From assembly GCA_028875655.1 (NCBI GenBank), contig JAPPCX010000004.1, positions 1 to 39,561 of the forward strand: DNA of 39,561 bases. The letters run 5' to 3'. The position numbers and the translations under genes were made by a program. Source of the stretch: Chloroflexota bacterium (GTDB lineage: Bacteria > Chloroflexota > Dehalococcoidia > Lucifugimonadales > UBA3495). This document shows, in pieces, positions 17,704 to 21,205 of this stretch; within the stretch, counting starts at the first letter, position 1; each line of letters begins with the position of its first letter. The notes beneath the pieces were generated by a model, which saw only the letters and a list, made by a program, of their open reading frames with translations, had not been told where the DNA came from and searched no databases.

Positions 17704-19440
17704 CTAAGCATTGCTCGAGACGCTGACGATTACCACGTCGAAGCCGTAGTATTTCTGGTGGCGGACCTCGGAGGCGTAATGGCGCAGCAGGCGGTAGGAA
17801 ACCTCGTCCTCGCTGGGTTCAGGCGGCAGTTCGGGGAGACGGGCGAGGCGGTCCTCCACGTTGTCGCAGGGCAAGGCTGAGGCGAATTCCAACTCTACGT
17901 TGCCGGAATCCTGGCGGGCGCGGACGGTGAGGCGGGAGCGCGCTCTGCCACCTCGCGCGTCGGCCCGGGCCATTATGGCCAAAGTCTCCTCGGCGGCGGC
18001 GGTTACGCGATTGACGGCTGCCGGGTGGCAATTCAGGCGGTCGGTGAAGGCGCGCAGGAAGTTGTACAGCTTTTGGGGCGCCTCCCCGTCCAGGGCGAGC
18101 CGGAGATGGCGTCCCCGGTGGGAAGTGAGTTCAAGTGCGGCGGCCAGCATTACGGCCGTAATGCCGCCGGCGGTCATGGCGTTGCCCAACAGCACGGCCC
18201 AGAAGCCATCGCCGATCAAATCGGGGTAGATCAGCCCATTCTGGAAGCCCAGGCCGACCCAGAAGGAGAGGCCGACAACCATGGCCTTGCGGTGGTCCAA
18301 GCCGTCGCGGACGACGATGCGCATGCCCTGGGCGAACAGCAGGGTGAAGAAAACTCCGATGTAAGCGGCTGCCACCGGGCTGGGGATGGCAATCAGCAGT
18401 GCGGTGGCCTTAGGCAGGAAGGCGAGGACCAGCAGGATGACGCCGATGGCAATGCCGACCCGACGCGCCGCCATGCCGGTGATTTCAACCAGGGGAATCG
18501 TGCCGGAGTAGGTGGTGTTGGGCAGGGTTCCGGCGATGCCGGAGAGAAGGTTGCCGAGGCCGTCTGCGTTGAGCGCGCCCTGGACGACACGGTAGTCGGT
18601 GGCGGCGGGGCGACGCCGGGACACTCGCTGGATGGCCACGCCGTCGCCGATGGTCTCAATCGCGCCGACGATGGTGACGGCGATGAAGGCGGGCAGAAGG
18701 GTCCAGAACTGGCGGCCCGGCGTAAAGTCCAGGCCGGGCCAGGAACCCAGGGGAGCGCCGAACCAGGGCGCGTCCAGCACCAGCTGGAAGTCATACAGGC
18801 CCATGGGGGCGGCTACCACGCAGCCGACGGCGGTTCCGATGACCGGGGACCAGAGCCGCAGCGGTTTGGGCCCGCGGAATACCAGCGCGAGGATCGCCAA
18901 CAGCGTTGCGACCAGAACGGCGGGGGCGGCCATGTCGGGGGAGCCCTGCGGGATCTCGGTCAGCATGTCGAATACGATGGGCATGACCGTGGCAGCGATG
19001 AGCATAATCACCGTACCGGTGACCACGGGCGTGAAGATGCGGCGCAGCGCCGGCAACCAGGCGGCGAGCAGGAACTGGACCAGGGAAGAAACGACGATCA
19101 GGCTGGCCATCAGGGCCGGGCCTGCCTCCACCAGCGCCGCGATGCAGACCGCTATGAAGGTGCCGGAGGGGCCCATCACCAGGACGTGGCCGGCGCCGAA
19201 CCTCCAGAAGCGAACCGCCTGCAGGATGGTGTTGGCGCCACTGATGAGCAGAGCGGCGAATACGCCCCAGGATATGTACTCGGCCGGCTGGTCGGCGATG
19301 CGGAAGACAATCACCACCGTGAGGACGATGCTGCCGATCATGACCAACGCGCCCTGGAATCCGGCGCCGATCAGGAGTGAGTTTGGTGGGTTTTCGTTGG
19401 GTTCGTAGCGGACGGTCTCGTTTATGAACGTTTCAGCCAT
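17704..19440 (-). CDS. NCS2-type (xanthine/uracil family) permease with a C-terminal RsbW/HATPase-like domain
   Basis: Residues from about 20 to 430 form a multi-span transporter of the nucleobase-cation symporter-2 fold. Recognisable segments are the GPSGTFIAVC region, VGAIETIGDGVAIQRVS (the conserved acidic helix), and ADGLGNLLSGIAGTLPNTTYS (the family signature loop). The last ~135 residues are extra and cytosolic. They resemble an RsbW-type ATP-binding fold: FLRAFTDRLNCHPAAVNRVTAAAEETLAIMARA, ending SYRLLRHYASEVRHQKYYGFDVVIVSV. The N-box asparagine seems to be replaced by alanine, so kinase activity is doubtful. NCS2 proteins are usually about 450 residues; this one has 578. It lies 44 bases behind the DUF35 gene. 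The substrate could be a purine, pyrimidine or another small molecule. Confidence 0.82.
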   Translation of the reverse strand: MAETFINETVRYEPNENPPNSLLIGAGFQGALVMIGSIVLTVVIVFRIADQPAEYISWGVFAALLISGANTILQAVRFWRFGAGHVLVMGPSGTFIAVCIAALVEAGPALMASLIVVSSLVQFLLAAWLPALRRIFTPVVTGTVIMLIAATVMPIVFDMLTEIPQGSPDMAAPAVLVATLLAILALVFRGPKPLRLWSPVIGTAVGCVVAAPMGLYDFQLVLDAPWFGAPLGSWPGLDFTPGRQFWTLLPAFIAVTIVGAIETIGDGVAIQRVSRRRPAATDYRVVQGALNADGLGNLLSGIAGTLPNTTYSGTIPLVEITGMAARRVGIAIGVILLVLAFLPKATALLIAIPSPVAAAYIGVFFTLLFAQGMRIVVRDGLDHRKAMVVGLSFWVGLGFQNGLIYPDLIGDGFWAVLLGNAMTAGGITAVMLAAALELTSHRGRHLRLALDGEAPQKLYNFLRAFTDRLNCHPAAVNRVTAAAEETLAIMARADARGGRARSRLTVRARQDSGNVELEFASALPCDNVEDRLARLPELPPEPSEDEVSYRLLRHYASEVRHQKYYGFDVVIVSVSSNA

Positions 19441-19484
19441 GAGTTATGCCTGTCAAACGTTCCGGGTGGTTGGAGACGGGAGCA

Positions 19485-19898
19485 TCAGCCGGCGGGTTTG
19501 AAGTAGGGAATCGTGATCTGCGGCGTGGCGGTCTGGAAGGTGACCTCCACTGCCATGCCGATGTGCACGTCGCGGGGGTTGCAGTCCACGATGTTGGTGA
19601 ACATGCGGACACCCTCCTCCAGCTCGACCAGGGCCAGCACGTAGGGCACCATCTCGGCGAAACCGGTGGTGCGGTTCTGCTGGGTTACGGTGTAGGTCCA
19701 CACGGTGCCGCGGCCCGAGGACTGGACCCAGCGGACGTTTTCGCCCCAGCAATCGGCGCAGATTCCCCGGGGGTACCACTGGTATTCGTCGCAGTCTTCG
19801 CAGTACTGGATGACCAGCTGACCGCGGCGGCAAGAGTCCCAGAAGGGCTTGGTCTCGCCCGCGATTGAGGGCAGGGGTTTGTTCCAGGTGGTGGTCAT
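19485..19898 (-). CDS. DUF35 zinc-ribbon/OB-fold protein
   Basis: This is a 137-residue protein of the Zn-ribbon plus OB-fold type. Four cysteines form the ribbon: CEDC near residue 33 and CADC near residue 48. The OB part follows (GRGTVWTYTVTQQ, then VLALVELEEGVRMFTNIVDC). These proteins act as partners of thiolase-superfamily enzymes, for example in archaeal acetoacetyl-CoA thiolase/HMG-CoA synthase complexes and in the Ltp2-DUF35 steroid side-chain aldolase. Here it begins 2 bases after the stop of a thiolase-like gene, so the two almost certainly form one complex. Confidence 0.9.
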   Translation of the reverse strand: MTTTWNKPLPSIAGETKPFWDSCRRGQLVIQYCEDCDEYQWYPRGICADCWGENVRWVQSSGRGTVWTYTVTQQNRTTGFAEMVPYVLALVELEEGVRMFTNIVDCNPRDVHIGMAVEVTFQTATPQITIPYFKPAG

Positions 19899-19900
19899 GG

Positions 19901-21082
19901 CTAATCCCTCGCTAGGATGACGGTGCCGCCGGAGTGGCGCGAGCCGAGCGCGCCGCCGGTGCCGTGGGCCAGGGCGATCTTGCAGTCGGGAACCTGACGG
20001 CCGGTGCCGTCGAACTGGTGTCTGAGTTGGCGGGTCGCCTCCAGGAGCAGGAAGATGCCGCGCATACCCGGATGGTTGGATGACAGGCCGCCGCCGTCGG
20101 TGTTGATCGGCAGCGCGCCGCCGACCTGAAGCCGGCCGCCGCTGACGAACTCTCCGCCCTCGCCCTTCTTGCAGAAGCCCAGATCCTCCAGGGTTTCCAC
20201 TACCGTGATGGTGAAGGAGTCGTACACCATGGCCATGTCGATGTCGTCGTGGGTCACACCGGCCATCTCGAACGCGCGGGGCGAACTCTGGTGCGCGGCG
20301 ATGTAGATCAGGTCACGCTTGCCCGCGCCCTGGTGGGCGATGGCCTCGCCGGCGCCCAGCACCCAAACGGGGGTGTGCCGGCAGTTGCGCGCGACCTCCG
20401 GCGATGCCACCACCACCGCGCCGCCGCCGTCGGTGATGACGCAGCAGTCCATGAGGTGCAGCGGGTCCGATATAACGCGAGAGTTCACCACGTCCTCCAC
20501 GCTGATGGGGTCGCGGAACAGCGCCTCGGGGTTCATGGAGGCATGGTGCCGCATGGCTACGGACACCTCGGCCAGTTGCTCGGAGGTGGTGCCGTACAGG
20601 TGCATGTGCCGGCGGGCGATCATGGCGTACAGGCCAACGGTGGTGAGGCCGTACAGTTCCTCGAAGCTGTCGGGAGACGGGTCCAGCACCGGATGCCCGA
20701 AGCGTCCGACGCCGCCGGTGCCCACTGATACGCCGCCCGAGCGGGCCAGGCTGCTGTACGTGATGACGGCCACGTTGATGCGGCCGGCCGCAATGGCAGT
20801 CAGCGCGTGGGACAGGTGAAACTCGAAAGAACCGCCGCCGACGGTGGTGTTGTCCACGTAGCTGGGGTACAGGTTCAGGTAATCGGCCAGGTTCATGCCG
20901 CTGTTGCGGATGCTGCTGGACGCGGTGAACAGGCCGTCAACGTCGTCCTTGGTGAGGCCGGCGTCGTTCAGGGCGTTAATGACGCTTTCGCCCTGGATCT
21001 GGAGCTCGCTCTTGTCGGGAGAATACCGGGTGACGTGCTCGTGGATGCCCACGATGGCGGCAGCGCGCCTGAGGTCAACCAT
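19901..21082 (-). CDS. thiolase-superfamily protein without the usual nucleophilic cysteine
   Basis: This is a 393-residue thiolase-fold protein. The N-terminal domain has AAAIVGIHEH and LNDAGLTKDDVDGLF; the C-terminal end has HGTGGALGSRHSGGT, near the usual catalytic His region. At the place where thiolases have Cys-x-Ser/Gly-G, this protein reads TVGGGSFEFHLSHALTAIAAG, with no cysteine. Thiolysis by the standard route is therefore unlikely. With the adjacent DUF35 protein the layout recalls the Ltp2-type retro-aldolases. The start is set at ATG 21082, with GGAGGTG upstream; the frame extends further but lacks a site. A TATAAA box lies at 21105-21110. Confidence 0.85.
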   Translation of the reverse strand: MVDLRRAAAIVGIHEHVTRYSPDKSELQIQGESVINALNDAGLTKDDVDGLFTASSSIRNSGMNLADYLNLYPSYVDNTTVGGGSFEFHLSHALTAIAAGRINVAVITYSSLARSGGVSVGTGGVGRFGHPVLDPSPDSFEELYGLTTVGLYAMIARRHMHLYGTTSEQLAEVSVAMRHHASMNPEALFRDPISVEDVVNSRVISDPLHLMDCCVITDGGGAVVVASPEVARNCRHTPVWVLGAGEAIAHQGAGKRDLIYIAAHQSSPRAFEMAGVTHDDIDMAMVYDSFTITVVETLEDLGFCKKGEGGEFVSGGRLQVGGALPINTDGGGLSSNHPGMRGIFLLLEATRQLRHQFDGTGRQVPDCKIALAHGTGGALGSRHSGGTVILARD

Positions 21083-21205
21083 GCGGGATGCACCTCCGTT
21101 GGGATTTATAGGTTGGCGCATTATGCCACAGATTGGGGAATATTTTTACCTTGATGTGCGGGATGACCGGGGCAATCGCACCATCACCGTCATTCCCGCG
21201 TTCCC

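Follow-up and report, generated by a model that had tools for sequence, protein, structure and literature searches.

The stretch of Chloroflexota DNA analyzed here (39,561 nucleotides, hereafter the window) carries on its minus strand a gene for a 578-residue protein (17704..19440), delimited as an open reading frame with a PF00860 match, in which an NCS2-fold permease is followed by a putative pseudo-RsbW domain. The frame opens with ATG, its coding sequence spans 17707-19440 and its stop codon lies at 17704-17706; every feature of this gene given below is on the same strand. Residues 1-436 (18133..19440) make up the membrane part, which has the NCS2/UraA-UapA fold. Pfam Xan_ur_permease (PF00860) matches residues 25-399 with an E-value of 7e-52, and a model of the full permease aligns with UapA (5i6c) at a VIA-align Z of 42.5 (rmsd 2.8 over 421) and with UraA at 39.0. 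On the strength of this model, the membrane part is an NCS2-fold, elevator-type transporter; the preliminary description of the locus had already called it NCS2-type. That description also counted about 135 extra C-terminal residues and quoted two motif stretches from them; both stretches are present and the extra tail is real, but it is slightly longer than claimed, at about 142 residues (437-578). Nor is it merely a normal NCS2 C-terminus, as the match of the full model to solved NCS2/SLC23 structures stops at about residue 441-445 in most chains. The window permease thus has PF00860, the membrane fold and an SLC23-like TM8 segment in common with NCS2/NAT transporters (UapA, UraA, XanQ, SVCT), and differs from them by its 142-residue tail.

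The substrate-binding region departs from these transporters as well. Alignment with UapA places a degenerate NAT signature at residues 311-322 (18475..18510), where the window protein reads YSGTIPLVEITG and UapA FAQNNGVIALTR. The [QE]-N-x-G signature of TM10 is absent, with GTIP lying opposite the QNNG of UapA, and in 125 relatives these columns likewise lack Q/E and N among their frequent residues. Glu262 of TM8 (18655..18657) aligns with UapA CECIGD, and its position in the 125 relatives is occupied by E in 60, K/R in 40 and Q in 22. Because the signature is lost and half of the relatives have K, R or Q in place of the TM8 Glu, nucleobases are an unsafe guess, and an annotation as 'xanthine permease' should not, given these aligned residues, be trusted. 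In the window, little space separates the genes for a thiolase, a ChsH2-type OB-fold protein and the permease, which share the minus strand (17707-21121); the ChsH2-type gene lies 47 bp upstream of the permease. This operon was considered as a clue to the substrate and rejected, because relatives do not keep the gene order and even a 94%-identical one lacks the thiolase and ChsH2-type neighbors.

Fold and degenerate motifs of the tail

The cytosolic tail (residues 437-578; 17707..18132) is predicted, from its modeled structure and from profile alignments, to be an RsbW/SpoIIAB fold that has lost its nucleotide motifs. It was modeled using AlphaFold2 with 36 homologs, giving a pLDDT of 90.6 and a pTM of 0.87. 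In a Foldseek search of the PDB, the first 21 matches were all RsbW, SpoIIAB, UsfX or the RsbW domain of Rv1364c (best E-value 7.6e-7). VIA-align returned Z scores of 15.6 for RsbW (6m37; 2.0 Å over 115), 15.5 for UsfX and 14.7 for SpoIIAB, with SiaB (14.1) and LvrC (13.3) next; ranks 1-12 all score at least 13.3, followed by a clear drop to ordinary GHKL/histidine kinases, none of which exceeds 8.7. A profile of 165 tails was also aligned with a profile of 25 canonical RsbW sequences, drawn from the order of the window genome except for that of locus L050 (Nitrospinota), yielding an E-value of 1.2e-6 and a probability of 91%. As these three comparisons agree, the tail is, so far as model and profiles can tell, an RsbW-type domain and not merely any GHKL domain. 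The layout of an RsbW/anti-sigma-type ATP-binding domain, which the preliminary description had proposed from the letters alone, is therefore what structure prediction of this segment recovers.

Pfam HATPase_c_2 matches the window tail only weakly (E-value 0.024; 15.1 bits, under the gathering cut-off of 27.4 bits), but the resemblance is not due to chance, since among 37 homologous tails the same family is hit in 21 at E<=1, at best with 1.1e-5. Scans of the single protein with Pfam and NCBIfam, which hold no model for the tail, reported for it only this sub-threshold hit and a match to PqqF, discarded as spurious; PADLOC found nothing. When PDB sequences were searched with the tail profile using hmmsearch, no RsbW was retrieved and the only match, to Notch 1 (E-value 1.7), was due to chance. 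RsbW structures were unreachable by sequence alone in this search, and were thus reached through the predicted structure. Relative to the RsbW/SpoIIAB/UsfX anti-sigma serine kinases (HATPase_c_2), the tail has the same fold over its entire length (VIA-align Z 14-16) and a distant sequence homology, but it falls below the Pfam cut-off, is tethered to the membrane on a transporter and is devoid of the N, G1 and G2 nucleotide motifs in all 165 sequences.

The register of these motifs was taken from the tail-RsbW profile alignment, whose first half is of high confidence. Within the degenerate N-box (residues 481-491; 17968..18000), Glu485 aligns with the catalytic N-box Glu of RsbW and is kept in 164 of 165 tails, and position 489, that of the N-box Asn, holds T, S, I, C, V and others, and Asn in none of the 165. 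The loss of this Asn had been noted before; the alignments show that the other two motifs are gone too. In the degenerate G1 box (residues 517-523; 17872..17892), position 521, that of the D-x-G Asp, is A, S, V, G or T in every tail and never Asp. In the degenerate G2 box (residues 544-551; 17788..17811), the GGLG of RsbW has become (E)x(E)-[IVL]-S, with Ser at position 548 in 152 of 165 tails and GxG in none; this register is less certain, as the box lies where the local profile alignment is no longer confident. The 25 canonical RsbW, in comparison, retain ELxxN, D-x-G and GGLG. Two further residues of the tail stand out in the alignment: Asn527 (17860..17862), invariant in 165 of 165, and His561 (17758..17760), present in 164 with one gap. 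Among near relatives dN/dS is 0.18-0.46 for the tail and 0.10-0.15 for the membrane part; the tail is under purifying selection, and is constrained less tightly than the membrane part. Taken together, the motif losses describe a conserved, putatively catalytically dead pseudokinase. That the tail might still be an active serine kinase or ATPase, binding ATP through non-standard residues and phosphorylating a STAS protein, has the near-universal Glu485 in its favor, and was rejected as highly improbable on account of the N-box Asn, G1 Asp and G2 glycines missing from all 165 tails.

Distribution and co-occurrence with canonical RsbW

The window genome encodes five tailed NCS2 paralogs. Tailed permeases were found in 35 of 99 relatives searched, and the tail in 62 of 296 related genomes with no more than 10 copies per genome. 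In 60 relatives it is present on nearly all PF00860 proteins, making the fusion near-obligate, with one clear exception, a 444-residue PF00860 protein without a tail in genome G067. Several paralogs are decayed, split or truncated (G079:C3, G079:C25, G028:C2, G022:C6 and G010:C1:1630748), indicating that copies within the family turn over.

A wider scan, with one genome per GTDB species, identified 40 loci in about eight phyla: Chloroflexota, Pseudomonadota, Gemmatimonadota, Latescibacterota, Spirochaetota, Nitrospinota, Acidobacteriota and Rhodothermota. From isolate names (SB06xx, RHO, COS, jk18, p16 and others), we read most tail-bearing genomes as sponge-associated MAGs. Most rows of the tree group by phylum, and Pseudomonadota are mixed with Rhodothermota. 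A block comprising a type I polyketide synthase, two tailed permeases and an ammonium transporter was observed in L054, L063 and L064, and the region is shared across phyla, between Rhodospirillales (L054:1-10500, L072:1-9100) and Rhodothermota (L063:1-9300, L064:1-9200). The upstream permeases of the block cluster together in the tree, and this sharing suggests module transfer among sponge symbionts. When 18 genomes of other phyla were searched with the tail profile, all hits were NCS2 fusions (some of them truncated where a contig ends) except for two stand-alone pseudo-RsbW copies, both in Gemmatimonadota, of 165 residues (L205:4775-5269, minus strand) and 171 residues (L213:5987-6499, plus strand). 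In each, the domain is preceded by one N-terminal hydrophobic segment, a single-helix membrane anchor; a Pfam scan did not recognize either copy as a HATPase.

The tail co-occurs with canonical RsbW, here defined by PF13581 at E<=1e-14 in the same 296 genomes. The tail is present in 62 genomes and RsbW in 63; 56 have both, 6 only the tail, 7 only RsbW and 227 neither (phi 0.87; Fisher 2e-45). Among the tail-only genomes, three of six are at most 80% complete (G170, G201, G237) and two exceed 90%; a genome of the same genus assembled as one contig at 99% completeness (G003) has neither tail nor RsbW. These statistics ignore kinship, and shared ancestry inflates the p-values, such that contrasts within families (e.g. 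f1, f11, f19, f38) are the better argument for the link. The association could also be a simple effect of lifestyle or genome size, with tail and RsbW both belonging to a host-associated gene set. This is weakened, though not excluded, by the genomes of at least 2.4 Mb (56 among the first 99), where RsbW is present in 33 of 33 with a tail and 3 of 23 without, and by two lifestyle markers used as controls, with which the association is far weaker: Cas1 in the same genomes gives an odds ratio of 2.3 and ankyrin repeats a phi of 0.38. Splitting the genomes into ankyrin-positive and ankyrin-negative sets leaves the link between tail and RsbW about as strong in each.

Partner-switch modules and STAS genes

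The window genome has one canonical partner-switch module, on contig C40 (L142:2286-7971), comprising a STAS protein with the residues S-S-A-G-L-R, a receiver-SpoIIE phosphatase, RsbW, a periplasmic binding protein and a HAMP histidine kinase; the STAS, SpoIIE and RsbW genes occupy L142:5917-7971, and no sigma-factor gene was recognized in the 12 kb examined there. Clusters with a periplasmic binding protein also lie at L224:10904-13600 and L050:9005-13725. These three conserved orphan clusters include a sensor kinase in two of three loci, as far as seen, and no adjacent sigma-factor gene was recognized.

In L050 and L224, complete STAS-SpoIIE-RsbW clusters lie 1-7 kb from a permease. A STAS gene follows the permease on the same strand at a distance of about 70 bp in L069 (Gemmatimonadota) and about 220 bp in L054 and L072 (Rhodospirillales), and these are two unrelated lineages. 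Same-strand STAS genes no more than 500 bp downstream of a permease number 2, against an expectation of 0.03 (p 6e-4, by a criterion chosen after seeing the data); counting all STAS genes up to 4 kb away, the excess is only marginal, with 1.1 expected and 3-4 seen (p 0.03-0.1). STAS proximity as a general rule is unsupported beyond these few loci: at most permease loci no STAS gene adjoins, and no partner-switch gene was found near the permease in the window. At L054:7953-9031, downstream of a tailed permease in a bacterial genome, the STAS gene is followed 6 bp on by a GPP34 (GOLPH3-like) gene.

Possible roles of the tail

STAS proteins are known bacterial partners of RsbW-type kinases. We propose, at a confidence that stops a little short of an even chance, that the pseudo-RsbW tail is a docking site for a STAS protein of the RsbV/SpoIIAA type, with a module such as that on C40 setting the state of the STAS protein and the transporters serving as output. 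The binding protein, histidine kinase, response-regulator/SpoIIE, STAS protein and active RsbW of the host would together set the STAS phosphorylation state. The dephosphorylated STAS protein would then bind the pseudo-RsbW tails and alter transport, whereby the permease may be opened, closed or stabilized, and phosphorylation by active RsbW would release it; the output of such partner switching would be transporters. The fold, the loss of nucleotide motifs, the conservation and the co-occurrence are shown by the analyses above, but STAS binding and the regulation that would follow from it are inferred, as are the direction of the effect and any substrate. As tail-bearing genomes nearly always have an intact RsbW system, the data suggest direct control of transport by the RsbW/STAS switch, in addition to genes or in their place. 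The function offered in the preliminary description, regulation of transport or a membrane-bound partner switch, is thus an inference with indirect support from this co-occurrence and weaker support from the STAS genes next to some permeases. Against STAS docking stand the absence of binding data, the distance of the STAS gene from the permease in the window and most loci, the 7 genomes with RsbW and no tail and the 6 with the reverse, and the possibility that canonical RsbW has another output, for instance a sigma factor encoded at some other locus. More tentatively still, the pseudo-RsbW tails of the NCS2 paralogs may compete with one active RsbW for a shared STAS protein across the approximately eight phyla, mostly in sponge-associated bacteria, making a whole set of transporters, in place of a sigma factor, the output; if true, this would be a previously undescribed regulatory principle.

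The signal could also run in the opposite direction, which fits nearly as well as regulation of transport by STAS. The tail would then capture a STAS or other partner-switch protein at the membrane according to transport state, making the transporters sensors that feed RsbW and gene expression. The same fold and co-occurrence support this, and up to 10 tailed paralogs against usually one RsbW per genome would suit many sensors acting on one switch; in its favor, too, a membrane-anchored stand-alone form of the domain exists. Yet the module already has sensor inputs in its binding protein, histidine kinase and receiver-SpoIIE, and no sigma-factor gene is recognized beside it, and we regard this direction as unlikely. 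NCS2 transporters and RsbW are both dimers, and an exapted RsbW fold might only stabilize the permease dimer or aid its assembly, without any signaling. The presence of the tail on nearly every paralog, its missing catalytic motifs and its faster evolution would be consistent with such a structural part, and the role of the STAS domain in SulP is likewise reported to be partly stabilization (PMC8256260). On this reading, however, one would not expect the close association of tail and canonical RsbW, the STAS neighbors, the anchored stand-alone copies or the invariance of N527 and H561, and it seems if anything a shade less likely than sensing by the transporters. Those two residues and E484/E485, all invariant or near-invariant, lie in or near the former ATP pocket in the RsbW alignment, so the pocket might bind another small molecule, such as the substrate or a nucleotide second messenger, and gate transport allosterically; no evidence points to a specific ligand and the RsbW co-occurrence would go unexplained, leaving this improbable. 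STAS docking remains our preferred reading.

The closest parallels to STAS docking come from other transporters. In SulP transporters, a STAS domain is joined to the same kind of membrane fold (PMC6497670, PMC8256260). SulP/SLC26 anion transporters and NCS2 permeases have in common the 7+7 TM elevator fold and a C-terminal cytosolic domain from the RsbV/RsbW partner-switch set; in SulP/SLC26 this is STAS, the SpoIIAA side, whereas the window protein bears the RsbW/SpoIIAB partner fold on the SLC23/NCS2 branch. Its C-terminal domain is RsbW-type and not STAS. The comparison with SulP made in the preliminary description was apt, and our best reading, by analogy, is that the tailed permease is the mirror image of the STAS-bearing transporters. 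A stand-alone STAS protein bound to the cytosolic part of a transporter is described for MlaB-MlaF, where it regulates the transporter (PMC7367683), which differs in being an ABC transporter without an RsbW-like domain. In the open-access literature we found neither the NCS2 permease with an RsbW tail, nor its tie to a live RsbW module, nor Xan_ur_permease together with HATPase_c_2; the word permease is absent from the main text of a paper on sponge Chloroflexi (PMC6306507). The parts are known and the combination, with its statistical tie to RsbW, appears new, a claim that is provisional because only open-access literature was searched.

The STAS domain of SulP/SLC26 transporters, the human ones included, has a regulatory logic that is still debated. 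In the tailed permeases it is the other half of the STAS/RsbW pair that is attached, to members of the sister transporter family; it is apparently dead, and its presence follows that of the live kinase from genome to genome. This makes partner-switch control of an elevator transporter directly testable with small soluble proteins. The tailed permeases also hint that uncultured bacteria, including many sponge symbionts, whose DOM uptake is poorly understood, coordinate their uptake through such a system.
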